A DNA stretch of 64,000 nt from Polytrichum commune (taxonomy: Eukaryota > Streptophyta > Polytrichopsida > Polytrichales > Polytrichaceae), in contig OX485807.1 in assembly GCA_950295325.1 (NCBI GenBank), forward strand, positions 7,442,501 to 7,506,500. Reading direction: 5' to 3'. Of the stretch, positions 13,283 through 63,213 are shown one piece after another; the stretch's first letter is position 1; each line of letters opens with the position of its first letter. The position numbers and the translations under genes were made by a program. The notes below the pieces were generated by a model. It was not told where the DNA came from and made no database searches. It worked only from the letters and a program-made list of their open reading frames with translations.

Positions 13283-14491
13283 TCTGCATTTGGGGATTTG
13301 TTTGTGGATTCCACTTATGTCTTGCAAAAAGAACAATAAAGAGCACATCAAATTCAAGTATCTCAACTATTTAGAGGCAGATCGATCACTTTTAGGTTAA
13401 AATGTAAGTGGACACAAGCTCATTGATTGCTTGTCTCAATTAGTTTGATGAGAGTTTTGTGGTGGTAAGGAATGGACTACATTTGTCAAAGTGAATGACC
13501 ACATCCACTTTGTGCAGTCACATGTGGTTAAGAGCCATCTCAGCATATTTTGCAACATAATGTCCATGTTCATCCATAAGAAATGTTTGTTGATATGGAT
13601 ATGAGAACTGGTGGGCTTGCTATGAAGAAGTGAGTGACTCGCACAATTCAACTCTTAAAGGTCCAAGAGGTCCATTATGAGACTCGATGTCTCATATAGA
13701 GGGGAGTTTAAGATAAGGTGATCTATCCAAAGACATCATTTAATTCAACATGCATGTTTCTCCAAATCAAGGTACGATATGCCATACACATATGTGAGTT
13801 GATTTGAGGATAAAAGTAAAAGCTCATATAAATCACCTAGACTCAAATACATACCACATATTTTAAATTTTGGATGGCTTTATTTTCATTTCTTTCTCTT
13901 AAATGGGGTTTTCTAGACATTCATTTAATATCACACTATATGAAACTACATTGATTGATGACTGTAGCACTACATTGTACATTCATAGTAATACTCATTC
14001 TGCTACTCTAGGGAATTAGCCGGTTTGAAACCATCATGATGCGCTTTCAGTCCCATCAGCCTTTTGACTTCCTGGACTCTAAAATCAATTTCATTTCATT
14101 GTGAGAAAGTAGGTAATGTCACCATTTTTTATGGTGAAATTCCTCGTTCCCCCCCCCCCCCCCTCCCTTTATAAGTGGGTGGGTGGGTCGGACCGGTCCA
14201 TGTGACTTGACCCTAAGTAATTTAGTGCTAATACTGCACTTAATGGGTCCGTTTGGAGAATGTTTCATGGTATTGTCCTTTAAGCATGTAGGACAGTCAC
14301 ATACTACCTAGTATATGCAGGAAGCTAGTTATTATTATTTTTGTGATGCCTTCTTCGAATTGTGGCCGTTCAAATTAATCTAACAATCTACAACTCTCTC
14401 AACATAACAAAGCATGATTTGTTAGCTAACAACTTACTAACTAACTTGTAGGTGCGGGTGCACTTAGGAGCCTTTGCATTTAAGAAGAGTG
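13283..14491. other. Unassigned DNA with a C15 tract
   Basis: No gene or complete element was found. A run of 15 C lies at 14149-14163. The 71-codon frame at 13436-13651 (-) has no motif. Confidence 0.35.
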
Positions 14492-14526
14492 TTAGTGTAC
14501 TACACTTTCCATGTGTAGTACACTAA
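14492..14526. repeat. Perfect 14-bp palindrome across the LINE 5' junction
   Basis: TTAGTGTACTACAC (14492-14505) and its exact complement GTGTAGTACACTAA (14513-14526) enclose a 7-base loop, TTTCCAT. The left arm is host flank; the right arm consists of the last 4 bases of the target duplication plus 10 bases before the element proper. This looks like fold-back copying at the 5' junction. Confidence 0.8.
14506..14516. repeat. 5' target-site duplication of the LINE
   Basis: TTTCCATGTGT occurs here and again at 23064-23074, directly after the LINE 3' end. The exact 11-bp match fixes the insertion limits. Confidence 0.8.
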
Positions 14527-15165
14527 GCCGGGTGGTGCCACATACAATGCTTGAACGCGGCCGTCTACACCGAATGGCTTCATAAATCTACATACATCCT
14601 CGGGAGGAGGGTGGACTTCGTCCCACACAAGGGAAGCATTGACGGCACCGCGCCCAACCAAACCGCCATTCGCCTTGCGCAAGCTCCGGTGCGGGAAGTC
14701 ATCGCTCAAAAAGCCCAAGCCATGAACAACATAGCCGCATCCTCCCCATTAGTATCGGAGAAAGTCTTCACCAAAGCTATGAAGGAACTCACCGAATCAA
14801 TGGAGGATAAGCTCACCACGATCACCCACACCATCAACCATAATACGGACATGCGCATTGAAGCCTCAACGGACACCCTCAAAACGCATGCCACCAACAT
14901 CCACAACATCATGAGCGCCATGGCGGTAGAGTTCCAACACTCTAATAGTCGCATCCACAACATTATGCAAACCTTGGCCGCCACAACACCGGACCCCCTC
15001 AAAACCAACACCGCACGCCTTCCCCACACCCCATGCACATCTTTGCTCAACACACACGAAGGTGACACCAACCCACCCCAACAAGCACCTCCGGGATTCT
15101 CCAACGCCCTCCTTAGAAACTCCCCATCAAGCCTCCACAAAGGACAATACCACCCGTATGACTAG
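14527..15165 (+). pseudogene. LINE ORF1, 5'-truncated
   Basis: The frame is open from just after the 5' junction to a TAG at 15163-15165, about 212 codons, with no plausible ATG start near its beginning, so the N-terminus is missing. Residues begin mid-protein (LNAAVYTEWLHKSTYILGRR). From about one third in, a long helical stretch with heptad-like hydrophobic spacing (SEKVFTKAMKELTESMEDKL onward to about position 14990) suggests a coiled coil, as in many LINE ORF1 proteins that bind element RNA as oligomers. No RRM or zinc knuckle is visible in what remains; such domains could have been in the lost part. The stop overlaps the ORF2 start in ATGACTAG, which suggests coupled translation. Confidence 0.65.
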
Positions 15166-15958
15166 TTTACTCATAGAATACACATTGGCGTCATTCATAC
15201 ACATACTATGTATTCTCTATTTTTTTATGAATAAAAGTAATATGTTTTGGCACAACATTGGCATAATACCTACCTCATACAACCTCACACACCCCACCTC
15301 TAAACAAACTTCCAAAAGCCGTCATAACAAACACACTCCCCTACACCAAACCTATATAATAATCTTTACACTTCTCCTCTCACTCACATATGTCTACCTC
15401 ACCATCTTAACCCCACATGACACAACACCTAGGACACCATATAGTTGTCATATATACCACCCGCCCCACAAAACCTCTACCACCTCCCCGTACTTCAACC
15501 ACAACCAATACACACATAACACACATAATACCACCCAAAATACACCACTAGAGCAAAATACTCCCCAAATACCTCCAATACATCTTATAACATACATAGG
15601 CAACATCCAATATATAACACACACCCACCTCAATGCAAGACCACACACAAAACACATCCAAAACCACACACATTTAACCCCTCCCCTCAACACCCTAACA
15701 CACCAAGCTCCTATACCACACTTCTCCACCAACCCCCACACCATAAACAAACTATACTCACACACCACAAGTCAAACTAGCCACAAAAGAGGCACCTCAC
15801 ATACATATATCACACATAAACACATCCACAATGCATATACTATCTACCACAATACATCCCCACTAATCGCCCCAATCAACACGTTAACCCACATTGGTAA
15901 CATATATTACATAACACACGCATACCGAAAAACTCCAAAACTCCAAAACATACAATAC
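15158..15958 (+). other. ORF2 N-terminal hydrophobic module upstream of the 2A motif
   Basis: About 267 codons, open throughout. Two strongly hydrophobic segments are visible: near the start (ASFIHILCILYFFM) and around 15344-15410 (TYIIIFTLLLSLTYVYLTIL), either of which could span a membrane or act as a signal anchor. The rest is rich in Thr, His, Pro and Asn. It holds two related words, TYIGNIQYITHTHLN and THIGNIYYITHAYRK, which suggest an internal duplication. I recognise no known domain. If the 2A works, this module would be released as a separate protein. Confidence 0.5.
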
Positions 15959-16021
15959 TACACCTGGAACAACTCCACACTCATCCTTCAACATGGAGAC
16001 ATTGAACTAAACCCAGGCCCG
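15959..16021 (+). other. 2A-like ribosome-skipping motif, DIELNPGP
   Basis: The frame reads LILQHGDIELNPGP, with GAC ATT GAA CTA AAC CCA GGC CCG at 15998-16021. This matches the canonical 2A signature D-(V/I)-E-x-N-P-G-P with the usual hydrophobic, glycine-containing lead-in. In viruses and some animal and trypanosome LINEs this motif makes the ribosome skip the bond between the final Gly and Pro. The predicted break is between codons 16016-16018 and 16019-16021, separating a product of about 287 residues from the rest of ORF2. Function in this plant element is inferred. Confidence 0.75.
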
Positions 16022-16621
16022 CTATCAACCATCCTCAACAATCTCCCCCAAACATACAAACTCAGACAAAAACACTATTTCATACCAAACACAATAACGC
16101 TCAAACCCAAATACACACACTTAGAACAAATATTCGGACCTTACATAAACCCAAGCACACTTAACCCCCCACAACAAAACCTACCACATCTACAACAACA
16201 CCTTTCACTACTTTCACAATATCCCACAGAACATCACATATATGCACTAATCATAGCCTATAGTTCCATACCCCAAATATGCAACCAATAAATGACCCAA
16301 AACTTAGACCCAAGATACCTAACCATACTAAGAAGACTCCATTCCCTCCCAGAAAGCGCACCAACAAACACCATAACACAAGCCTACCCTAATATTAACG
16401 ACAACACAATCACACATGCCTATTCCCACATCAATGACAACATTGCTAGAGGCATAGAAACAAACATACAAGACATAAAAACGAAGCTACCTTACGTACC
16501 CCGGAAAATCCTCGAAGAACTCACCAAATGCACCCAACCAATAAGGGGATACCACCCACACATCCAAACCACCAACACCAACCACACACCACAAAATAAT
16601 ACGACTCCATACGACCAACAA

Positions 16622-17400
16622 ACAACGACACTAAAAGTAATCACATGGAACACATGATGCATAAGCTCCAGCCTACCAGGTATCCAAGAACTTACGCAAA
16701 CCCTACCCACAGACCCACACATTATACTCATACAAGAAACCAAAATTCAAAAACTAAAATCCACAACATACATTGATAGAAAACTACAAAGCTACAAAAT
16801 CATTTACAATAACTCCAACAACCTAATCAACAAACAAAATCGATTTACCGGACCCACCACGACAAGAGGAGGCATACTCGCAATGATACCTAAAATCATA
16901 TACACAAACGAAAACATTACCAAAATACCCACCCCTAGCCCAATATCACACTACTTACAAGATATCCTTATCAACAATAAACCCATCACACCAATACTCC
17001 TCCTAAATATGTATATGCCATCACACCCGCAAGACATACACCTTATACAAGACATTCAAAATGAACTCCGAACTCTAACCCTCCGCCATCACAACCATCA
17101 CATTATCCTAGCATGAGACTTTAACCGAGACATACTACTCAAAGGAAGATCATCCAATGGCCAAATCTCCCCCCCTAACCAAGAAGACTACGAATGGGCC
17201 CAATTCACAAGCACCCTCGGACTCCACCCGATAAACAACCAAACACAATTCACAAGACAAGGGGGCCATAATTACACATCAACTAGCCACATTGATGGCT
17301 TCCACTCAAACCACGACAACACACAATGTCACACCATACTGAACCTTAACCAAAACTCAGACCACTACCCGGTACAACTCCAACTACCCACTAATAGCAT
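16622..17400 (+). other. Apurinic/apyrimidinic-type endonuclease (APE) domain
   Basis: Catalytic words of the exonuclease III/APE fold occur in the right order: VITWNT (Asn), ILIQETK with Glu at 16736-16738, NMYMP, DFNRD at 17117-17131, SHIDGFH, and SDHYPV with Asp-His at 17360-17365. This domain nicks target DNA in L1, I, jockey and related LINEs. Two in-frame stops (16655, 17114) break it. It lies directly upstream of the RT, as usual. Confidence 0.85.
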
Positions 17401-18239
17401 TGCCCTCAAAGAAACAATCATCCCCCCCACCAACCCCCGTATCATATACCCCATACCCCCCACTAACCTCCAAAACCTCCAAACAACCTTCCTAGAAGAA
17501 CAAAACCTAGAAATAGAAAATCTCACTAGACTACTACAACAAGAACGACTCACACACCCAATGGCAATACGCACAAAACAAATTTCAAAACATCATAAAT
17601 TCTCTCAGCCGATGTATCGAAAAAACGCGCATGACAATACCCACACCTCCACTCACCACTAGAGCCAAAATCCAAGGAGGATTCTTACCTTGAAAATAAC
17701 AAAAATTATGGAAACACCACCTTAAAATATATCACGGAGCGCACAAAGTCATTTGAGCTGCCTGCCAACATCCCCATACCCATCTCCAAAACCACCCCCA
17801 CCTTAGATCCCTGACACTAATAAACAACTTAGACATCCCCCCTCTCCCTACAAATCCCACAGAACATACACAATGGATAGAGGAAATAGCTAACATAGGA
17901 AAGAAAACAAAAACTGAAGCACACAAAATAATAGTCAAACAGACCACAATCAACTGCAAAGCCGCAATTACAAAATATAGAGCATTACTCAACATAAAAC
18001 CCAAAACCATACACAAAAAGATATTTCACCCAACAATCAAAAGCTCCCTAGATTACATACAGAACTCCAATGGGGACATCCTCACCAAACCCCCAGATAT
18101 AACCAACAAAATATATTACACACAACAAGCATCTTTCTAGAGGCAAGCACCACTATGCAGTGACATCACAGATCACCCAAGCACTTGTCAATGCGCAATC
18201 CGTAAATATCCTTGGCACACACACAACGGCATAATATTA

Positions 18240-19300
18240 GACAAAAGAGGCCTTCATAACACATCCATAGGCACCCAATTTACAAGGGCAATCTACGACA
18301 ACTGCGTCAAAAGACTAACTAGAGGCAAAGCCCCCGGCCCCGATAACATCCCCAACGACATACTTAAAGCACTACCTTCACAATGCCAAGACCTCATTTT
18401 CCTATTTTTTCAACATTGCTACAAACAAAGGGAAATCCCAACCTATTGGAAACATAGTAAAACCATCCTACTCCATAAGAAAGATAACCCTATACACCTC
18501 GCCAACTATAGACCGATAGCACTAGCTAATACTATATATAAGTTATACACTAGCATCATAACGGCTCTCCTCACAAGCTACGGGGAGCAACACAAAATAA
18601 TACACTTTAGTCAAGAAGGTTTCCGACCACAACGAAACACCTCCAGACAACTACAAACAATAATCGCAGCCCTAAAAGACGCCAGACTCACCAACAAAGA
18701 CATCTACCTTACCTACATTGATTTCCGAAACGCCTTCGGATCCATCGACCACGCAAGACTACTAGCCTTAATGGAGGACCTAGGCTACCCCGCCGACGCC
18801 GTTGAAATAGTCGGCAACATATACAAAGATTCCACCACCTCTTTCACAGGCAACCACTTCGGCACAACACCCCCAGTAACAATTAGCCGGGGCACCATAC
18901 AAGGGGATACACTTAGCCCATACCTATTCATAATATTCCTTGAACCATTGTTAAGGTGGTTAGAAAAAGATGACATGGGTTATCACTTTACTACATCCAC
19001 CTCCACATGCGCCACTACCGCCTACGCCGACGACCTAGCCATCATCACCGACAATATCAAACACATCCAACCACAAATATTTAAACTATAAAAATTCGCC
19101 GAATGATCATATATGGACCTCAATCTCTCCAAATGCGCCATTACGGGATGTCCCAATAAATCAAAACTTAAACCTAACACCTTCAAAGCCTACATACAAT
19201 CACAAAACATCACCTACAAAGAAAAAAATCTCCCCACCCTAACACAAAATGAACCATACGCATACCTAGGCATCCAACTAATACCATCCCTCAAATGGAA
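18240..19300 (+). other. Reverse transcriptase domain
   Basis: LINE RT blocks are all visible: GKAPGPD, ANYRPIAL, EGFRPQRNT, YIDFRNAFGSIDH (first catalytic Asp at 18720-18722), RGTIQGDTLSPYLF, AYADDLAI (catalytic YADD at 19023-19034) and YLGI. Stops at 18138, 19089 and 19104 flank or cut the domain, but no catalytic residue is lost. The domain primes element cDNA from nicked target DNA. Confidence 0.93.
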
Positions 19301-21450
19301 CATCCAAAAAGAAATTACACTCCAAAAGGCCAAACAACAATGCACACTACTAACTCTCTCCCCAGCCAGTCTTAAACAAAAAATTAACATCCTAAATATG
19401 GTTATAAAACCTCGCATAGCCTACGCATACTATGCAGTCCCTTTCTCCAAACCCAATATCATGAAACTAGATAAAGTCATAGGTAGACTAACCAAAGAAA
19501 TCTGCAACATACCCAAAAGTACGGCCAATATCTTAACACACCTCCCCCATGAAAACTTTGGCATAAATGTAACCTCCCTCCTACCAGATTATATACACTG
19601 CATAGGTCAACAACTTATCCAAGCCCTTAACGACCCCGGCCAACTAGGACACATATATCAAGGCCTAACCAAATACATAGTAGCCAAATACAGAGGCTCG
19701 TTACACCTCTCTAAACTCAAACAACAAGCATGCACAAGATCTCCCATCGCAAGAACCCTCTTCCTATTGAACAAAGAATATGAGATCCACGTCACCACAA
19801 CAAATCATGGATTCCCCCTCAAGAAAACCCCCATAGAACAAATGTGGATATCCCAACAAACATACGCCAACCTCACCGACGCGTCCAAAATAAAATCACA
19901 TAAATATCTAGCCAAACTATACACACATGGAATAACAACAATAACACAAATTCAAAATAAAGAAACCACTGCCATCCTAACCTCTGAAGAATTCCGGGCC
20001 ACTTACAACCATACGTCCAAAACCATAAAAGAAGCACTACAACACGCCTCCACAATATTCCCACTAACAATACCACCCACACAACATTCAAATCACACCC
20101 ACCAAACACAACCAACACACACAAGCATAACACACACCCCCAACCCCCCCCCCCCCCCCTCACAACCCACCCTAGGACGAGCAATTCACAACATAACCCA
20201 AGAAAAAACCTCCACTAGAAAAGACAAATAGGGAGCACAAGCCATCACAAAGCAATACTTATGCCAATGGCAAACATCACATGGAACCACACTACAATGG
20301 CGAAAAGAGGAGGACCTCCTACACCCGGACAACATACTACTAGACCACAATCTATTACTCATCACACAATTCCAAAATGCAACAATGGAACTACAAGCCA
20401 CTCAAAAATATGCCACCCACACCACCCACACCCAATCAAGAGACAAAAAATACATACGTCCCCCCATCCACATCACCAACCTACAAACCAACATACATGA
20501 ATGCAACCCGGACAAAGATATTCTTAGTACCAAACCTACCATACAAATACACAATCTAGAATCCAACATACATGACCATCATGGTAAATACATAGCCACA
20601 ATTACCACGGAACGACTACACTGGTTATGGAACCAATTCATCCACAACAACCAACCCCACATAACCAACTTCTTACAACCGCCCCCACAAGACTTCGAAA
20701 CCGAAATAGTATGGCTCATGCAAAGATATATATCCATACTCCCTAAGAAAAAACCAAAAATCATACAACCCAAAAACCAACACCACACACTACACCCGGA
20801 CATCACTAAACTGCTCATAGAGACATTCCACATCACACACTCATATTACTCATCCCCACTCACTTGTCCTATCCAACTCACACAATACAACTCACCACAC
20901 ATCCGAGACATAATATTTGGCTCACTAGGACACGCCCAATCCTCTAAATGGAATGGTATAGGCCTAGCATTCCCCACAGACCATAACACAACGGTCGAAG
21001 CCATACACTGGGTTAGAATGGCGGCCAAAGAAGACACACAAACAAGTACCATATTAATAATTAATCACGACGATTGGACACCAAAGAGAATCACACTTAA
21101 CAAACACCCAGACATACACACAATAGCAACCATCCCACCACATAGCATCCACTATAACCCCACGCCCGAATGGCCCAAATACTACCAATACACAGAACCA
21201 TCCCTCACGTCCATCATATACATACATAGCCAAACAACACTCACAACCACCCCACATATCTCACAAGAACTAACAAACATACTAAAAAGAATAACAACCA
21301 CAAATATTGGCACACATCCTATTAAACCCACCCACGCACAATACAACGTTAAATTCTCAAACAAATGGAAAAACGCCCCCCAAGTAAAAATCCTCCCCTC
21401 CCCTAACACCACCCCCACACCCCTACCTCCCACATACCACCACATTCATC
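19301..21450 (+). other. RT thumb and long linker to RNase H
   Basis: About 715 codons lie between the RT palm and the RNase H, a long interval. The first part (to about 19700) looks like the RT thumb region (KQKINILNMVIKPRIAYAYY). A proline-rich stretch with a C14 run lies near 20130-20165. One stop, TAG at 20229-20231, interrupts; downstream the frame is open. No known domain was recognised in 20232-21450. Confidence 0.5.
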
Positions 21451-21459
21451 CCCTCAAAT

Positions 21460-21905
21460 TTGACCCACTATCATGCATATACACAGATGGCTCATTCATC
21501 CCGCCATCCAAAAACTCCGAGGGACAAATAGTGGGCAATACCGCAGGATCGGGAGTATATAGCCCCAACAACAACACCCAAATCTCAGAAAGACTACCCG
21601 GATATCAAAACATCCTAAGAGCCGAACTAAATGCAATCCTCATAGCTATTAAAACCATCCAAACCACCCAAAGAGACACACACATATTTACAGATAGTCT
21701 TAATAGCATATACTTAATCAATAACCACATACAACACCCAACATCCCAACACCATCACCCCGACAAATTACTCATCGCTGCCATTATCAACCAAATATAT
21801 TGGACCCCACAAATGATCTACATACACAAGGTAAGAGCGCACACATGCATTAGTGGAAATGAAATGGCGGATACACTAGCAAATGCAGGAACACAACAAA
21901 ACAAA
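21460..21905 (+). other. RNase H domain
   Basis: Shows the four acidic residues of RNase HI in order: Asp in YTDGS (21486-21488), Glu in RAELNAIL (21624-21626), Asp in FTDSLNS (21693-21695) and Asp in NEMADTLA (21870-21872), plus the conserved His in KVRAHT (21840-21842). It would remove the RNA strand from the cDNA hybrid. Having the His links it to the cellular/retroviral-type RNase H with a complete active site. Confidence 0.9.
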
Positions 21906-22229
21906 CCCGACATCACACCAAGAATACACATAGCCCGCACTACCCCATATTGGCTAGCAAGCTGCCCAACCGGCACACACGACGGAGCAATCCGTAACCT
22001 CCGTACATTCATAACAAAAACACATGAAAGTCAAGAATCCGCCAACCAAAAATACCTATACGTCAACAAATGGCTATCAAACGAACAAATAAACCAAAAA
22101 CTGTCAAATCACTTCTGGAAAAGCAAGCAGGTCCCGATACACAAATTACCCAAACCCTCAAATTTAGATATGCACAATACATGGGCAACCATAGAAAACA
22201 TATATATTTGGCCTCTCCAATACCCAAAT

Positions 22230-22300
22230 CCTAACTGCACACTATGCCAAAGAAATGACAGAGACACATGGCCCCACCTACTATCAACATGCGAACACCC
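22230..22300 (+). other. Zinc knuckle CX2CX9HX4C
   Basis: Cys at 22236-22238 and 22245-22247, His at 22275-22277, Cys at 22290-22292, followed by RHNKTVHLIAQTL. A CCHC knuckle followed by an RHN word is the usual lead-in to the restriction-like endonuclease of R2-type LINEs. Here it follows RNase H rather than RT directly. Confidence 0.8.
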
Positions 22301-22479
22301 TTACTTAAAAGGACTTAGAATCTCAAGACATAACAAAACCGTCCATCTGATCGCACAAACACTACAAGCCAACAAAAACACCCGATTCTTTACACTGGCC
22401 AATGCTGGTAACCTCAAAAACCAACCGCCAGACAACACAGTACCCGGATGGCTCCTAGCATGCACATGCCCGCAAACGA

Positions 22480-22898
22480 CATGCCACTGCCAAGCCAAAC
22501 TAAGACCTGACATAATGTGCATTATAGGAGCCCACAACCAATCATCAACACCGATACTACCCTACCCTAAACACACAATCCAATTCATCGAATTTACATA
22601 TTGCCATGACAGATTCCCTGAAGAAGCACTCACCCACAAACACACCAAATATGACCCACTCATCAACACCATACAAAACAACGGATGGAAAGTCAACCCC
22701 CTAATCACCATCACAGCCGGAGTAAGAGGTGCTATCCACGAACATTCCATGGAAAAGCTAACCAACCTAAAAATCCCAAAACACAACATTAAAACCCTCA
22801 TGAAGAAAATACATGAAAATGCCATCAAATATCTCACATACCTCGTCCTAAACAAAAGAAAACTTGATAACAAACAAACCCCTGTCCCCCCACCCTAA
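22480..22898 (+). other. Restriction-like endonuclease (RLE, PD-(D/E)XK-type) domain and C-terminus
   Basis: Downstream of the knuckle the frame reads KLRPDIMCI (Asp at 22509-22511), then QFIEFTYC (Glu at 22590-22592), then THKHTKYDPL (Lys-Tyr at 22647-22652) and PLITITAGVRGAI. This is the spacing expected for R2/RLE-type LINE endonucleases: PD, then an acidic residue in a beta strand, then a Lys/Arg-Tyr helix. A second genomic copy near 35.6 kb conserves KY, the VITAGVRGAI word and the C-terminus. Catalytic assignment of the Glu is inferred; the family fit is good but not proven without profile comparison. Confidence 0.7.
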
Positions 22899-23063
22899 CT
22901 AAACTTAACTAAAATAATATGATATAATTTGGTAACAAGAGCCCACCTCCCAAAAGAGGCATAACGCCCTATATTGCATCACGGGACACCGCGATCAATA
23001 TAGGGCTAACGGGCTCGCATTCATGCCGGTATACAATACCGGCGTTCTTTTTTCTTTTTTCTT
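22899..23063 (+). other. LINE 3' UTR with two hairpins
   Basis: Hairpin 1 is a perfect 11-bp stem, GCCCTATATTG (22966-22976) with CAATATAGGGC (22996-23006). Hairpin 2 is a perfect 8-bp stem with a 3-base loop, GCCGGTAT (23025-23032) with ATACCGGC (23036-23043). The element then ends in a T-rich tail. The words 'acaagagcccacc' and 'atagggctaac' are kept in the second copy near 36.0-36.1 kb. 3' hairpins of this sort are often the RT recognition site of stringent LINEs. Confidence 0.75.
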
Positions 23064-23074
23064 TTTCCATGTGT
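23064..23074. repeat. 3' target-site duplication of the LINE
   Basis: TTTCCATGTGT, exact match to 14506-14516. Confidence 0.8.
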
Positions 23075-27859: not shown

Positions 27860-28551
27860 GGGCCAATTCACATGGAGTCCCAAGTCACTTGAGGTCAATC
27901 CGTGCAATCTCAGCCGTTGAGAGCATGAAAGTTGGGACTTACCACTTCACATGGGATCCCAAGTCCAAAGTCCCAAGTATGACATGGATGCTTACATGGC
28001 AACACTTTTTGGAGGTGTGGCTTGGGACTTGTGTTGTGAGATGGGTCGAGCAAAAAGGCTAGACCCAAACGTCAACCCAAGTCCCACAAATATTTTTGCA
28101 TAAAAATTAATGACCAAGATCCGACTTTAATGATAATTCACCATATATTAATGTTTTCTTGAGGCTCACAAGTTGAGAATTTGCCCCCATGTTTGGACTT
28201 GCTAACATGAGTGGGACTTGGGTCCCAAGTCCCAAGCCTCAAGAAACCACTAAAATATGGTGAATGAACATTAAAGTCAGATCTTAGTTATTTTATGCAA
28301 AAATATTTTGCGGGACTTGGGTTGAGGTTTGGGTCTAGCCTTTTTGCTCGACCCAACTCACAACACAAGTCCCAATCCTCACCTCGAAAAAGTGTTGTCA
28401 TGTGAGCATCCATGTCATACTTGGGACTTAGGACTTGGGACCTTGTGTGAAGTGGTAAGTCCCAACTTTCATGCTCTCAATGGTTGAGATTGCACGGATT
28501 GACCTCAAGTGACTTGAGACTTAGGACTTGGGACCCCGTGTGAACGGGCCC
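27860..28551. mobile_element. 692-bp foldback, Harbinger-like element with ~300-bp arms
   Basis: The left arm (27860-28160) and right arm (28242-28551) are inverted copies for nearly their whole length; ends are GGGCCAATTCACATGGAGTC and the complement of GGGCCCGTTCACACGGGGTC. Left context is TTA, right context GTA, the same pattern as the element at 11160-11892. The GGGCC end plus TWA context fit PIF/Harbinger. Confidence 0.8.
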
Positions 28552-30505: not shown

Positions 30506-30852
30506 TCGGGGGGGGGGGGGGGGGCGGGCAGTGTGTTAAAAAGTTAAGGATATAGGTGCGAACAACCACTATTTTATAGGGGGTATTACTTTCAATTTTT
30601 TTTTTTTTCACATGCTATCATTATGTAAATTTCTACTTTGGGTTAATAGAAAAATGGCTTGCATTACTTATAATTCCAAATTACCTATTATTCCATACCC
30701 TTTATTACTTTAAAGATGTCCAGTGCCATTTTTGATACCCTATATTACTCTTAAGTCCATTTACAATTTTTTGCCCCCATGTTTTTAAAATACCCTATCA
30801 TTTGTTGGCATGTATATTGCTACTCCAACCAATGACTACCCCCCCCCCCGAG
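30506..30852. mobile_element. 347-bp MITE with homopolymer G/C terminal repeats, copy 1
   Basis: Starts CTCGGGGG (a G run of about 16, then CGGGCAGTGTG) and ends in a C run followed by CGAG. It is flanked by the exact 8-bp repeat CTTCCAAC at 30498-30505 and 30853-30860. A near-identical copy sits at 62437-62778. The high similarity of the two copies suggests recent activity of the family. Confidence 0.88.
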
Positions 30853-31199: not shown

Positions 31200-31530
31200 A
31201 AATTACACTCTCACTTGCATAACATGATTCCAATGTGATAGAAAGGTTTTGAGTCTAAAGAACTCAAGTGAGCTCAAAGATGATTCCCGTGATAGGTAAC
31301 TAGTTTTGAGCTCATTTGGAGAGCTCAAAGATGGTTCCTAGAGTAGGGAACCACTTTTGAGCTCAAATGAGGAGTTCGAGTGAGATCAAAAATGGTTCCT
31401 GAGGTAGGGGACCACTTTTGAGGTCATTTGAGTAGCTCAAGTAAGCTCAAAGATGGTTATAGAGGTAAGGAACCACTTTGGAGCTCATTGAAGAGCTTAA
31501 GTGAGCTCAAAGATGGTGGCTATGGAAGGG
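31200..31530. repeat. Minisatellite, unit ~60-67 bp, about 4-5 copies
   Basis: Repeated units of the form 'gagctcaaagatggttcc.gaggtaggg.accacttttgagctcatttga' run from about 31260 to 31525, diverged by roughly one base in ten from unit to unit. Confidence 0.8.
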
Positions 31531-32627: not shown

Positions 32628-33008
32628 GCGATCGGTAATTTCGCACACTAGATAATATAATTCTATTCTTTCCAAGTCCGATTGGTTACATGTTGCATGA
32701 ACTTTCGGTTTTTTCTTTATTAATTTGAGGTATATTCTCTATATTCCTCTAGAACGCTTGATAAGTTTTGTGAGGTCTTGTTTAACCGGGCTATTTCTCA
32801 AACTCACCGGTTCATCTTGGTAACTTAAGGTACCGAATTATCCTGAAGTCTCAAACTTCAACCAGGTTATTTCTCAAACTCACTGGTTCATCTTTGTAAC
32901 TTTAGGTACCAAATTCTCGTGAAGTCTTGAACTTCAACCGGGTTATTTCTCAAAATCAACCAATTTATATGGAATTAACCGCCGGTTCTCCCCGGTTCTC
33001 GCCCACAC
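32628..33008. mobile_element. hAT-type MITE relative with internal tandem repeats
   Basis: Shares with the MITE at 11586-11811 the words 'ggttacatgttg', 'tttttctttatta', 'ggtatattct', 'ttatttctcaaactcaccggttcat' and the end 'ccgccggttctcccc'. Unlike that copy it carries a ~78-bp unit two and a half times ('aaccgggttatttctcaaactc...gaagtct.aaacttc'). Ends and target duplication are eroded. Confidence 0.65.
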
Positions 33009-35544: not shown

Positions 35545-36115
35545 CATGTATTCATAGTGGTTTGATACCCAAGCCATACAAACAAAAGAAGACAAATACA
35601 ACATGTTAGTAGATGCAATGAGAGCACAAGGCATGAATGTTATACCCCTCATAGTTATCACTGCAGGAGTAAGGGGAGCCATTCAAACAAGAAGCATAGA
35701 TGTCCTTGAGAACCTACATATTCCCACATCACTAATAGAAAACAATGCAAACCATCCACCAAATAGCCATCAAAAATCTCACATACCTAATACTTAATAA
35801 GAAAAAACTTGACAGTATACAAGAATCAATACTCTCCCCCCCACATAGTAAATGGATATAAATATAAATAAAATAAAAATAGTAGTAGTAGTAGATAATA
35901 ATAGATAATAGATAATAGATAATAGATAAATAGATAAAAATAAAAATAAAAATAAAAATAAAAATAAAAAACAAACAAATCTATATATACAAACAAGAGC
36001 CCACCCACCGCAAGGTAGACAGTAAACCCCACATTGTACCAAAGGGGTTCTTCAACATGATAGGGCTAACATGCTCAAATTCATGTTGAATTGCCCGATG
36101 TTGGTTATTCTTTTC
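35545..36115 (+). mobile_element. 3' fragment of a LINE related to the element at 14.5-23.1 kb
   Basis: From about 35553 the reading WFDTQAIQTKEDKYNMLVDA then VIPLIVITAGVRGAI aligns with RFPEEALTHKHTKYDPLINT and NPLITITAGVRGAI of the large LINE, including the conserved Lys-Tyr. After a frameshift near 35735 the C-terminus (LTYLILNKKKLD) matches LTYLVLNKRKLD. The 3' UTR keeps 'acaagagcccaccc' and 'atagggctaac.tgctc..attcatg' and ends in (TTTTC)n. It is a distinct, older subfamily with AT-rich microsatellites inside its 3' UTR (35870-35970). Confidence 0.82.
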
Positions 36116-36950
36116 TTTTCTTTTCATGTTTGATACAACATGTTTATATTGGACATGATAAGCATTACAACTTCTTTTCTTCCACGTTATTTGGCTTAGT
36201 GGAATTGCCTGTTTATTTATTTATTATGTTGTGTTTTTTTGCAGACTTAAATAGAAGCTTGTTGTAAAGTGGCACTAACATATGAATTTTCCCACTACAA
36301 TATTTCATTCACAAATTTCCTGCATGTTTTCACTCTGGAAATACAGGGAGTAAGTGGCTTGCTATACATTGTTTGAAATGTACACTGCCTGACAATTTGT
36401 TTTTTTTAGGGACGCCACCTTATTTGGCAAGGTGAAATTGCCTTTTGGGAAAACCACGGATTCCTTATAGTAATATAAAAGTTAAAAGAGATCAAAGCAA
36501 AGATTCTCTTTCTCTTTGAGTGATACATAGGTTCTTCCAATTGTATTGACCAATAACCCATAATGATATCTATATGCTAAGCATATAAGGTCCATGGACC
36601 TTACAAGAGTGCATTTTGTCTCCATTCTTGCTTGGTATTGAGACTAGACCTCATGTACACTCTCGATTACCATAAGTTGCAAAAGATTTAACACCAACAT
36701 GAATTACGTGGATGTGTCCACTGCATTGATAATCATATTTAGTGAGGGCTGACTAATAGTGTGTGGGAAATTAGTAAAGGGAAAATTAAATTTCTTTACG
36801 GTATGAAATTGGTGCCACCAAAAGATGGGACTTGTTTGCATGAAGCACAAACTTGTATATGCCATTTTTTTTGGCAAGTATTTATGAAAAGCAATGCTAC
36901 CATACTATTTTACAAGGCCTGAAGTTGATGATGATGTTGCTGCATCATTG
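36116..36950. other. Unassigned DNA
   Basis: No repeat ends or coding motif were recognised. Confidence 0.35.
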
Positions 36951-43394: not shown

Positions 43395-46300
43395 TTAGAT
43401 CAATGTATCCAACCTGAGATCCAGAATGCAACCCTGCAATTTCGGCATGTAATTTACAAATTCAGGCAAACTATTAGCGCGGCCTTGACGCACACACCTC
43501 CACGTCGGTGGGTCATGTGAAAGATCGCAAAGAACAACCGATCCTCTCACCTCACATGGCTGAAAAATGTACACTAAACTCCCGCGCCCCGCGCCTTGAA
43601 TTTCGTATCGCAAATACGACGGTGGCTCGAAGTAAGCCGATGTGCAGACCTTGGGCAGACCCATTTGGGAAAACAAATCCGTTGGCATCACGGTGACGGG
43701 TTTCCACACCTTCATTGCGATTTGGAGCTCCCATATGCCTACCCCGGCGATGGAGGTGTAGTCGTCTATAAATCCGATGAGGAGGAGGCGGCCATTGGAT
43801 TCGACGAGAAACGGAGGGAAGACGTCGGCAAGGTAAGGGCGCCCTCGCCACAGGCGCTTGAGTGACGGGTACTCGGTGAAAACGAGCTCATCAGGTAATG
43901 GGGCTCTCACCGCACGCCACCGGGCGCCCTTGGTTTCGTACGCCATCAATGTGTGGTATTCTACACAAATGGTATCAAGTTCCACAACTCTCAATAACTA
44001 GGAAGGATTTAGTACGCAAATCTACACACTGAGTTTGTCCAAACGTAGGATGAACATGAGTTTAGTATCATTTTGCTTTGTTGTCACATGCACACATGAT
44101 TGCAATTCGGGGAAGAAAACCAGCAGCATCATATGATGGGAACTGTAATTCAGCAAGTACTTTGAAAAGAAATGCGAGCAAAAACTTATTTAATAATCTG
44201 TGTATTTTCACATATTATATTACTGGATACTTGCAACGAAGACATCTTTCTAAGACTAGTTTATGCTATTTATATCATAGGACACATTGATAGAATTACA
44301 TGTACATAGTCTCAATATAATCCAAAATTTATAGCAATCTAGAATTATTTAGTACTTAGTATTACAAAACTCTCAAAGTGTTGGAGTTTGGACACTGTTT
44401 GCACCACCAATTGGAATGATCAAACTGATTTTGCATACGTCATTATCGGTTCATGCAATCAGCATTGGCTCATGCTAATGAACACCAAATTAATTATGCA
44501 TATGTAACTAGTACATAAGTATTTTCAATAGCATACCCTTCTTAACAATAGTCCATAATTATATGTAGATAGAACTTGTTTTAAAGGTCTCAACTCTTGT
44601 CATTTCATTGAACATATGACTACATGTAGGTTAATGAAAACAAGTGAAATCTACACTTCCTCTCTCCCTCCCATTGTTCCTCTCCTCTCCTTGCAATTCT
44701 CTTCTTGTCTCTTCCCCAAGGTATAGGAACTTGGACATTCATTATGCATTTCAGGATAGAGTTGGTCAAACCTTGCCTAAAGAATCAAGTGTATTCACAA
44801 TTCAGTCTAAGTTAGAACTCGATAAGAAACTTAGTAGTCTGGATAATTTCACCAGTAATCTTGGCCTACAGTGCGAAAGGCCCCAGTAAACCGATACGGA
44901 AAAACTCCATAATATATGACAGCCCAGCATGTTGGAAAGGTAATACAATTTAATGCCTAAAATTAACCAAGTCCGTCTGGATACCTTCCTGGTATTGAGG
45001 ATCAATAATGATAAAGACAGACAATTAGTAGTTTGCACCAAGATTCTAGTTCAAATTAACAATCGTTCATGCCTAAGACTTAACCTATCTGTTTGAAGTA
45101 ATCCTTAAGGTTTACTTCCCTAGTAGTGCTACATCGTTTATGGTCTTCAGTGTCAGGTACACTATTTGTGAAGGTCTTAAACTAGATGCTTAGAGGTTTC
45201 AAAGTGTTAAGCCTGCTAATTGCCAACATGATTTCATTCGTCAACATAATTTTTTTGGGTGAAAAGTATCCACATTTTGACATTTAGAGTAACAAATTGG
45301 GATACTTTAGATGATAGTCTTGTATTTTAGTATGCAATGGAAAAATATTTTTGAGCATACCAATGGCAAGTGTCATGTGTATACATTTTAATATGCACGA
45401 GAAAGATATTCTTGAGCATGTTAATGTCAAGTGTCATTTGTGTACACTTTAGTCAACTCGTAGACCATTATAAAAACATAGGCATGCACCTTACAACGCT
45501 ATTGAACATACTCATGTCAAGATTTTAGTAGGCGCACTTCAATGCCAAATGTCATAAAGTGACACTTATGATGAAGTCGTAAATCATCAATGTAACCTAA
45601 CATATGTCTCAAAATAGTGACACTATTACGCATGTGACAAGTCTAAATACCATAAATGGTGTACTTCCAAGTTGTCCGCACAGGAGATGAATTAATTATG
45701 TCTCACCAAACAACAAGCTGGGGAACTAAGTTCTTTTTCCAAAGTGTCCGTCCCACCCGTGAGGTTGATTAAGCCCCTCCAGAGAGTTGAATCTGCCAAC
45801 TGTAGTTGCCCTCAATTGGTGTAAATGAAGGACGCTTCATCTTTGGCATAACTTAGACTGAGCTTGACACGCCTAAACCTTACGTACACAAGTTAAGTGA
45901 GTTGCCAAGTGCGACTATAATATTAACCTGAACCTACTTTAAAACATAATAATTTTGGTCAGACCCAATGATTTCGCTCACATGACAGTCTACTCTTTAT
46001 TGGGTACAAGGAGGCACAACATTGGGTCCATTGATTGATTAAATCTTTCCATGAGTTGACCACCATGTCAGGTATTCGACACCATAAGTTATAACACCAC
46101 TACCGCAACCGAAATTGTGAGTCTCGTTTGAAGCAACTTTTGACATTGTCAACTCATCACCATGATCAAGATATGCTTGACCCAAATAGCAACTCGAAAG
46201 CTCACAAGCAGTAACAACGACGATGCATGATTCAAAGAAGGTTTTTTTTTTTTTTTTTTTTTTGTTTTTTTTTGTTTTTTATCACGCATCGGAGTTGATG

Positions 46301-47301
46301 ATGTTTCATGGGAAAATCCACAAAGAGGTTCAAACTTGAGGAGTCACGTTTGATGGAATGATTTTACCTCGGTTTGGATCGAAGGCCATTATCTGATTGA
46401 AGCGCATGTGATACACGACCCCCTCGCAAAACGCGGTCGACGTTCGCGTCGCCTCACACACGTGGTTCTGTTGATTGATCACCTTCTCACAACTAATCCG
46501 CCAGCACTCGCTCCGGGAATCATAAACCTCGGTACTTGCTACTTGCTGCTCATACTCCATCCCACCAGCCACCACCAGCTTATAGTGGCCACCTTGACCA
46601 TGGTTAGAATTATTTTTCACCTTGCTTGAATACATAAACATGACGACCACAGGGTTTTGTCTGCGGCGGATCAAGGGGGGTAGCTTCTTCCATGAGCCAG
46701 TGATGGGATTAAAAACTCCGAAGCGCGAGAAATGGCTCTTCAAGGCACTGATCTTGTACAACATCAAGCCTGAAGCTGATCCACAGAGAGACAACCCCCC
46801 AATTTTCTGGACAGTTGCAAAGTGGGGGATGGTGGTGAAGATGTTCCATGCGTTTCGCAGCGGGTCGAACGCGTGTAACCTGTGGGCACTGCCGGGCCCT
46901 CCATTCTCAAACAGGAACAGCCAGGAATTGTTGTTGGTGGTGGAGGAAGGCGAAGAAGGATTCAGAGCTCCTGTTGTTGTTGTTGTTGATGGTGGTGGTG
47001 GTGATGGATCTTGATAATGATGTCCCAGAATCTGGCCTGAGAAAACCTCCCTGTCCCATTTTCGGCACACGAGGGTGGTGTGGATGAGGTCTGTGAGAGG
47101 TAAGTTGGACAGGATTCTGGTGACCAGCTCAGGGTGCAAGTTGCCCCAAATTTGGGGGTCCAAAATAGGAGAAAGAGTGGTACAAGGTTTCTCTGAGGAG
47201 GAGCCAGAGGGGATTGCGAAATTGGAAGCTCTCCATGGGTTGAGCTTGTTGGTGGGGTTCAAGCCTGAAATGATTTGCCTGTTTTGCACTAGAGTCCCCA
47301 T
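43395..47301 (-). CDS. F-box/kelch-type protein, two exons
   Basis: Substrate-receptor subunit of an SCF ubiquitin ligase, by family. Exon 1 is 47301-46368, exon 2 is 43987-43395, giving 508 residues. The ATG at 47301 has a good context (AAAATGG) and an in-frame TAA fifteen bases upstream. The F-box lies at residues ~49-90 (DPQIWGNLHPELVTRILSNL onward), binding SKP1 in related proteins. A Pro/Ser/Thr-rich linker (~98-125) follows, then kelch-like repeats with words RLHAFDPLRNAW, GVFNPITGSWKKLPPL, STEVYDSRSECWRI and, in exon 2, GVGIWEL and PPTWRCV. The 2,380-bp intron has donor CGAG/GTAAAA and acceptor GAGAG/TTGTGG, phase 1, joining MAFDPNR to VVELDTICVEY. It most resembles plant UFO / At5g15710-type F-box proteins; the exact orthologue is not determined. 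Both exons are intact, so the gene looks functional. Confidence 0.85.
43988..46367 (-). other. Intron of the F-box gene
   Basis: Read on the - strand it begins GTAAAATC and ends ATTGAGAG. A good branch-point-like TACTAAAT lies about 25 bases before the acceptor. It contains a degenerate ~75-bp direct repeat at about 45310-45560 ('gagcat...aatg.caagtgtcat.tgtgtac') and a long T-run at 46242-46279 (an A-run on the gene strand), perhaps the tail of an inserted retroposon. An 81-codon frame at 44644-44889 (+) shows no motif. Confidence 0.75.
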
Positions 47302-48190
47302 TTTACCAAGTAATTAAACTCAATCTCAGGAAAAAGTAGAGCAGGATTACCACCAGTGCAAGGTGGTGATCGGATCAGAGAGGCATTAGGAGATCATTGA
47401 GAGGACTTGGTGGGATTCAAGCCTGAAATCATTTGCCTGTTTGCACTGAAGCCCCCTCACAGATCAAATTGCAGAGCAGTCCCAACCAAATAAACTGAAC
47501 ACCAGGCAAAGCTAGAGCAGGATGATCTGTAAACAACTTATAGACTCCCAGGGTCAGTCACTGCAGTGAGTTTGAGGAGGAGTCTCAAGTCTAAAGAAGA
47601 TCATTTGAGAACTTGGTCAAGTATATCAGTTGGTGGGATTCAGCCCTGAAATTCATTTGAATGTATTGCAGAATAATAGTAGTCCCCATGTCAAGGCACA
47701 TCAACCTACAAAGCAATCCCAACCCAAGAAACTGAATCCCAGGCAAACTGGTGGGATTCAAGCAGGCTGAAATAAATCTGCCTGTTTTGCACTGGAGTGC
47801 CCTTGCAAATCAACTAGCAAAGATTCAGTCCCGACCCATTAAACTGCAATAATCCCAGGAAAAACTATACGAGGAGGATCACCAGTGCAAGATGAAGATG
47901 GTGATGATAATGATCTAAGCACAACTTGAGGCCCCAGTGAGTTTGAGGAGTCTAAAGCCAACTTAGAGAGGAAAGAGGAGATTCAGAAGTTGATCATCAT
48001 CAATTCAAGCTGGAGATTCTTTGCCTGTTTTGCAGTGAACTCCCCATGTAGGTAGATCAAATCAATTCGAATCAAATAGCTAGTAGTCCCAACCCAAATA
48101 AACTTGAGTTTCAGGAAAAGGAAAAGAAAAAGTAGAGCAAGATGATCATCAGTACTGCAAGGTGAACCTGATGATCTGAGAACAACTTGA
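47230..48190 (-). repeat. Decayed tandem duplications of the F-box gene 5' end
   Basis: A unit with the + strand words 'gggattcaagcctgaaat.atttgcctgttttgcact', 'gagtcccc', 'aactgaa.c.caggaaaa.ctagagcaggatgatc' occurs about five times, starting near 47255, 47410, 47635, 47755 and 47995. The first unit contains the real start codon and the codons for MGTLVQNRQIISGLNP. The others lie in the leader or promoter and have lost the ATG. Confidence 0.7.
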
Positions 48191-61873: not shown

Positions 61874-63213
61874 CTCAGGGAGGTCATTTCCCCTTATATT
61901 TTGTAATCACGTGCGTTAATTGGGTATTTGTTTGGGGGCTATTTACCTAGTATTTATGATTTTAAAAGACCTTTTTAGTAGAAAAAAACTACTTGGTCTT
62001 AATTTCCAGCACCTTACATGTAATTCTAAGTCCAAATGTAGCCTAATTCTTGGCACACTATAGTACTTATAAAACTTAAGCATTTGCTCCGATGGACATT
62101 AAAGGTTTTAGGATAAGTGTTTGGCGTGGACATATGCAATGTATATGAGCATATTTGAACCGAACTAGAAATCAACATAAAACAAACAAGCATAGCAATT
62201 GAGTAACCATTCAAATCACAAAAATAAAATAAATTAGATGATGCAGATTCCATGGTATTCCTCAACTCTATCCGATGAAGGTCCGAAGGTGCGAGACGAA
62301 GATGCGCACAATCGATCCCAACTCCGCATCACCAAGTTACAAACCCTAAACACAAGTGTGAGTAGCAAGTGTAGACATGTAGACACAAGCCTTGTAGCGT
62401 ACTTTGAAACTTGCATAGCAAGAAAGTGAAAAATGGCTCGGGGGGGGGCAGTGTGTTAAAAAGTTAAGGATATAGGTGCGAACAACCACTATTTTATAGG
62501 GGGGTATTACTTTCAATTTTTTTTTTTTTTCACATGCTATCATTATGTAAATTTCTACTTTGGGTTAATAGAAAAATGGCTTGCATTACTTATAATTCCA
62601 AATTACCTATTATTCCATACCCTATAGTACTTTAAAGATGTCTAGTGCCATTTTTGATACCCTATATTACTCTTAAGTCCATTTATAATTTTTAGCCCCC
62701 ATGTTTTTAAAATACCCTATCATTTGTTCGCACGTATATTGCTACTCCAACCAATGACTACCCCCCCCCCCCCCCGAGAAAAATGGGAGCAAGCAGCGCG
62801 ACCACTCCTCGGCTCGAAACCGAAACCTAAACCGATTTGAAAATGGACCAATAATTTAAGTCCACATGCAAAATTTTCCCTCCTACACCCGTGATATGCT
62901 TTTAGTGATAATTTCATCACTATATTGTATTGAAAATGTATTATTTTTCATATGTCTACTAAAAGAACTAGGGATTATACTCATCCTAATATTAAAAAAA
63001 AACTTCCATGATTTTTTTCATACTAATTTATATCTAATACTAAAAAAATGAGGGTTTTTCCAATACCCTAATTTACATATAATGACATTTCAAGCATTAA
63101 TTGAAGGCTATGGTAGATCCAAGTCTTATGTAATTTTTTTCTCCAATAAATAAAATGAACCTTATACTTTAACTCACGTGGTTTACTAATTTTCACAGGA
63201 TGACCTCCCTGAG
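61874..63213 (+). mobile_element. Inner element of the same family
   Basis: Starts CTCAGGGAGGTCATTTCCCC and ends with the inverse of CTCAGGGAGGTCATCC. Flanks ATGAGTAA (61866-61873) and ACGAGTAA (63214-63221) agree at seven of eight bases. Internal words shared with the outer copy include 'cacgtgcgt', 'gggggctat.tacct' and 'ggatctaccatagcct'. It carries a poly-G MITE at 62437-62778. The 8-bp duplications and CTC-G-rich ends relate it to that MITE. Confidence 0.7.
62437..62778. mobile_element. 342-bp MITE with homopolymer G/C terminal repeats, copy 2
   Basis: Starts CTCGGGGGGGGG and ends in a C15 run followed by GAG; flanked by the exact 8-bp repeat AAAAATGG (62429-62436 and 62779-62786). Internally nearly identical to copy 1 at 30506-30852. 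Confidence 0.9.

Follow-up and report, generated by a model that had tools for sequence, protein, structure and literature searches.

A degenerate retrotransposon with two endonucleases and a PCIF1-like domain, very likely of the Dualen/RandI kind

The stretch of DNA analyzed here, 64,000 nucleotides of contig OX485807.1 in assembly GCA_950295325.1 (hereafter the window), holds a decayed retrotransposon of a rare kind. It is very likely a dead copy of a dual-endonuclease non-long-terminal-repeat (non-LTR) element of the Dualen/RandI kind. As judged from its sequence and from modeled structure, the copy comprises a remnant of a first open reading frame (ORF1); an ORF2 with a leader, a 2A-like peptide, an APE-type endonuclease, a reverse transcriptase (RT), a PCIF1-like domain, an RNase H, and a zinc knuckle with an R2-type restriction-like endonuclease (RLE); and a 3′ untranslated region (UTR) with a T/C-repeat tail, all between target-site duplications (TSDs). 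The features, including a second copy, are as follows.

14506-14516, no strand: left TSD, 11 bp, exact match to 23064-23074
14517-23063, plus: whole retrotransposon copy, decayed, TSD bounded, with strong strand asymmetry
14527-15165, plus: ORF1 remnant, frame 1, 212 codons
15158-15994, plus: N-terminal leader of ORF2 in frame 2, starting at an ATG that overlaps the ORF1 stop
15995-16021, plus: 2A-like peptide GDIELNPGP, aligned with the motifs of relatives P0015 and P0105
16631-17374, plus: APE-type endonuclease in frame 2, with two interrupting stops (profile E = 3.9e-48)
18294-19580, plus: RT, frame 3 (profile E = 2.5e-166; Pfam RVT_1, 6.9e-27)
20496-21287, plus: predicted domain with a PCIF1/CAPAM-like methyltransferase fold, reading FPTD at the position of the catalytic motif
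21480-21881, plus: RNase H domain that retains H among its active-site residues (profile E = 1.7e-33; Pfam, 5.6e-16)
22218-22868, plus: RLE with RHN, PD, E, and K-Y (profile E = 3.2e-53)
22236-22292, plus: CX2CX9HX4C zinc knuckle
22899-23063, plus: 3′ UTR, a stable fold (22936-23045) and then the T/C-repeat tail
23064-23074, no strand: right TSD, 11 bp, exact match to 14506-14516
35569-36127, plus: second copy, 5′-truncated, with the RLE end (35570-35840) and 3′ UTR (tblastn E = 1e-15)

The span of the element follows from the 11-bp direct repeat that bounds it, which has a chance probability of ~0.004 for zones of that size. GC skew was −0.41 to −0.56 across four 2-kb blocks (14001-22000), the plus strand being C- and A-rich. 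A previous sequence-only reading had placed a plant long interspersed nuclear element (LINE) at 16622-22898, with both endonucleases in one frame. That span lies inside the element but is too narrow given the TSDs, and the single frame did not hold up: the APE is in frame 2, RT through RNase H to RLE is in frame 3, the change falls near 17560-17760, and both frames contain in-frame stops. All the sequence words it named are present, but it did not mention the 2A-like motif or the PCIF1-like domain. The left TSD is spanned by a perfect inverted repeat with 14-nt arms (14492-14505 and 14513-14526), as if the 5′ junction held fold-back filler. Scanning the window with Rfam (gathering thresholds), for tRNA, and with regular expressions for LTR elements gave no match, and no relative was found when related loci were sought in the viral_contigs and genome_contigs scans.

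Relatives of the element were 130 proteins from three homolog searches, one of which gave the best 120 of 387; counts over 131 proteins add the window's own read-through. These relatives are predicted proteins, some of which may be spliced gene models. The ORF1 remnant had no blastp relative (E of 1e-3) among the 130 other proteins and no Pfam family above cut-off. The peptide GDIELNPGP matches the 2A consensus D(V/I)ExNPGP, which is present in non-LTR elements (PMC4981915). At the same site P0015 has Q in place of E, and P0018 and P0070 also carry the motif upstream of APE, bringing the total to 4/131 proteins (P0015, P0105, P0018, and P0070) among the matches listed. The 2A-bearing elements of Odon 2013 (cited in PMC4981915) share this consensus with the window element but are APE-type by the title of that report, whereas the window element has both endonucleases.

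Domain profiles were built from the relatives without the window sequence and run on the six frames of the window, with a mild circularity, since the window had been in the search set of the iterated profiles that were used to find the relatives' slices. The words TWN, QET, DFN, and SDH, from which an APE had been proposed earlier, are present within 16631-17374; the catalytic words align with the uninterrupted relative P0015, which is 60% identical to the translation of 16292-17659 over 428 aa. The active-site H of the RNase H is H537. Pfam run on stop-bounded pieces found no APE or RLE family at an E of ≤1, and a match to PF12237 (6.3e-6) was below its curated cut-off. At the C terminus, the knuckle, RHN (22326-22334), PD (22506-22511), the E of IEFT (22590-22592), and the K of KY (22647-22649) are all present. 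A call of RLE from such short words alone was rejected; the profile matches go beyond chance, both for the RLE profile in the feature list and for a profile from 17 RLE elements without detected APE, which matches 22227-22829 (E = 2.2e-14). By this sequence profile and by predicted structure, the C-terminal domain matches the R2 RLE, in line with the RLE that the sequence-only reading had proposed.

At least 36/131 proteins have the order APE-RT-PCIF-RNH-RLE within single predicted proteins, with no order exceptions, and at least 39/131 have both APE and RLE, 3 of these without a detected PCIF1-like domain. For the RT tree, 8 of 135 rows with <70% coverage were left out (P0002, P0003, P0015, P0097, P0100, P0105, P0107, and P0115), and 40 rows were the analyst's choice from the remaining 127. 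A dual-endonuclease clade that includes the window had support of 97/88, against 98/97 for the RLE-only group and 95/95 for the APE-only group. P0114 and P0128, which have APE-RT-RNH-RLE and no detected PCIF1-like domain, were sister to the dual clade, with support of 99/94 for the whole. P0109, also with no detected PCIF1-like domain, has a weak RLE match (E = 0.0007) and branches among APE-type rows. Approximately unbiased (AU) tests rejected grouping of the window with human L1, the only L1 row (P = 0.0005), with the APE-only group (P = 0.0002), and with the RLE-only group (P = 0.0016). The branches of human L1 and P0011 are long, and several rows, the window included, have an odd letter make-up. 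The closest rows to the window in the tree are P0012 and P0013; P0015 is closer to it in sequence (83% over 53% of the query), but its short length kept it out of the tree. Where dual-clade rows have named hosts, these are Cymbomonas, Haematococcus, and Parachlorella, all Chlorophyta; a related protein from Pleodorina (Chlorophyta) was left out of the tree for coverage. The RT of Dualen/RandI branches after the RLE-only groups, near the base of the APE groups. In a FastTree tree with the R2 rows assumed as root, the window RT fell after RLE-only and near the APE base (0.96 to 0.99); the 40-row tree is unrooted, so a position "between" the other groups holds only with R2 as root. Among the best 120 of 387 relatives, additional Pfam matches were PF00145 in 3, PF00856 in 1, PF02099 in 3, PF02902 in 2 (plus P0005), and PF00628 in 6, which we take to be cytosine-5 DNA methylase, SET, Josephin, Ulp1 protease, and PHD finger, respectively. 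Carriers of these matches or of an OTU protease are P0041, P0077, P0084, P0128, P0044, P0070, P0097, P0005, P0112, P0114, and P0004.

Neither of the two outcomes that the sequence-only reading had named as refuting it was observed: the C terminus matches the R2 RLE, and the RT falls inside the APE-plus-RLE clade rather than with human L1, the only L1 row. The kinship to Dualen/RandI that had been proposed from sequence is therefore supported. APE and RLE together are the mark of Dualen (PMC4640811). Dualen/RandI and the window element share both endonucleases in one element, an RNase H, an RT apart from the RLE-only and APE-only groups, and a tail of simple repeats other than poly(A). In PMC3747384, each of the 8 tabulated RandI families has non-A repeats, with (ATT)n and (CTATTT)n listed, compared with the T/C unit of the window element. 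The window element further adds a separate ORF1 remnant overlapping ORF2, the 2A-like leader, and the PCIF1-like domain. Dualen, as described by Kojima and Fujiwara in 2005, reportedly has an N-terminal cysteine protease domain; in the window copy, which may be 5′-truncated, Pfam found no protease in 14527-16291, and proteases vary among the relatives (OTU in P0004, below cut-off; Ulp1 in P0005). R2 elements, which insert in 28S rDNA, are not known to carry APE or RNase H. With R2 (8gh6, 9nl2, 9nl3, and 9dou, structures solved during initiation of target-primed reverse transcription), the window element shares the C-terminal CCHC knuckle and RLE fold, but it differs in having an APE and in an RT outside the RLE-only group by the AU test.

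PMC4438587 lists Dualen/RandI for green algae only, a range that would need widening should the host prove to be a land plant; a repeat annotation places Dualen in cryptophytes (PMC12747079). In the literature searched (best-ranked titles and abstracts, with the 2005 Dualen paper outside), we found neither a PCIF1-like domain in any retrotransposon nor Dualen in land plants, and likewise, mostly from titles and abstracts, no 2A leader or K-Y/Q-H split of the RLE in Dualen/RandI. Dualen/RandI has been taken as evidence that APE-type LINEs arose via replacement of RLE by APE (PMC4640811). Since the dual elements form their own clade, joined by the two proteins that have both endonucleases but in which no PCIF1-like domain was detected, the arrival order of the PCIF1-like domain, the APE, and the RNase H, as well as nuclease activity, is testable on intact single-protein relatives.

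The element probably moved by target-primed reverse transcription. ORF2 of a live element would be one polyprotein, from which the 2A-like site would free the leader during translation. The element protein would bind its own RNA, and one endonuclease would nick the target; the RT would then copy the RNA from the nick, RNase H would remove the RNA, and either the remaining endonuclease or a factor of the host would cut the second strand. The APE might make the first nick, with the RLE and knuckle serving in DNA binding and the second cut.

Several points count against this interpretation. The split of roles between APE and RLE is a guess and is its weakest step. The copy may be 5′-truncated. 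The model of the 888-aa stretch has low overall confidence (pLDDT, 61.9; pTM, 0.38). The tree rows include no plant L1 and no Chlamydomonas Dualen reference, the tree groups were picked after the architectures and a first tree had been viewed, and P0109 was counted as APE-only despite its weak RLE match. The 3′ UTR fold (z of −9.71 for 22936-23064) was rejected as a conserved structure: a homologous stretch is present in the second copy but keeps 17/37 pairs, equal to the best slid control, and folds on its own at a z of −1.87. Finally, Q-H replaces K-Y in 38/57 aligned APE-plus-RLE pieces, which may mean that many relatives have an RLE unable to cut.

That substitution is what favors the strongest alternative, in which the RLE no longer cuts and persists as a DNA- or RNA-binding remnant, leaving all the nicking to the APE. 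The P, D, and E are nevertheless kept in 52/57, 53/57, and 50/57 of the same pieces, and K-Y is retained in the window and six relatives; we regard a non-cutting RLE as a serious contender, albeit the less probable one.

The domain between RT and RNase H matches a PCIF1-like profile at 20496-21182 (E = 1.5e-46), and its predicted fold is the PCIF1/CAPAM methyltransferase fold. The part of human PCIF1 that aligns to it (417-668) belongs to the methyltransferase domain rather than the WW domain. A catalytic NPPF is present in human and zebrafish PCIF1/CAPAM (6irv, 6irx, and others), whereas the window has FPTD, and NPPF was found in 0/66 covered rows (6 more were gapped) and 0/72 slices. Disruption of NPPF lowers PCIF1 activity (PMC6318281), which, together with its absence here, makes a still-active adenosine methyltransferase improbable. 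Most likely the domain no longer methylates and acts as an RNA-binding module. It would be surprising for retrotransposition machinery to include a methyltransferase fold that most of the clade has kept while its catalytic motif changed. Tentatively, and with less than even odds, these threads may be joined: dual-endonuclease LINEs would have captured a cellular cap-adenosine methyltransferase (PCIF1/CAPAM) before they diversified, lost its catalytic motif, and retained its fold, placed between RT and RNase H, as a module that binds RNA in retrotransposition, with one line, marked by the 2A leader and an R2-like K-Y in the RLE, spreading in land plants.

Two further alternatives concern the identity of the element. 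It could be a plant L1-type LINE whose C terminus is another zinc-knuckle domain and not an RLE, given that plant L1 elements also have APE and RNase H (PMC4640811). The R2 fold match, the match to the profile from RLE-only elements, and the rejected grouping with human L1 all oppose this. The window RNase H keeps H537, whereas plant L1 RNase H is reported to be of an archaeal-like type with R there (PMC4640811), although the authors of that source did not recover the archaeal-like cluster with bootstrap support. The tail consists of T/C repeats, not poly(A), the tail of 224/233 flowering-plant L1 families (PMC3747384), and we consider an L1 origin very improbable. Chance nesting or fusion of an APE LINE with an unrelated RLE LINE might be suggested by the different frames of the two endonucleases here but is scarcely credible, as at least 36/131 relatives carry both in the same order in single predicted proteins and both lie inside one TSD-bounded unit with strong skew throughout.

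The second copy of the dual-endonuclease element is flanked by a 9-bp repeat (35560-35568 and 36128-36136; chance, ~0.036). It had been said to keep the C-terminal domain; the copy is real, but of the 888-aa stretch only residues 795-888 remain, beyond the PD and E. T/C repeats terminate both copies, with no poly(A). An (ATT)n-like tail was considered and rejected, the AT-rich repeat at 35867-35970 being inside the second copy's 3′ UTR and not at its end. Over 92 codons, the nonsynonymous (dN) and synonymous (dS) divergences between the copies were 0.48 and 2.61, a ratio of ~0.18 that is rough because dS is near saturation. The RLE remnant of the second copy has been under purifying selection, which is compatible with a cutting and a non-cutting RLE alike.

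Elsewhere in the window, an open frame of 327 aa on the minus strand (46333-47313) carries F-box and kelch motifs and presumably has a plant-like make-up. A dispersed repeat (30520-30849 and 62440-62771) is 97% identical over 332 columns, a sign of recent movement. A long imperfect palindrome at 27876-28521 has 85% identity over 656 columns, and tandem arrays are found at 31321-31517 (61-bp unit), 32784-32958 (76-bp unit), and 45324-45451 (61-bp unit).

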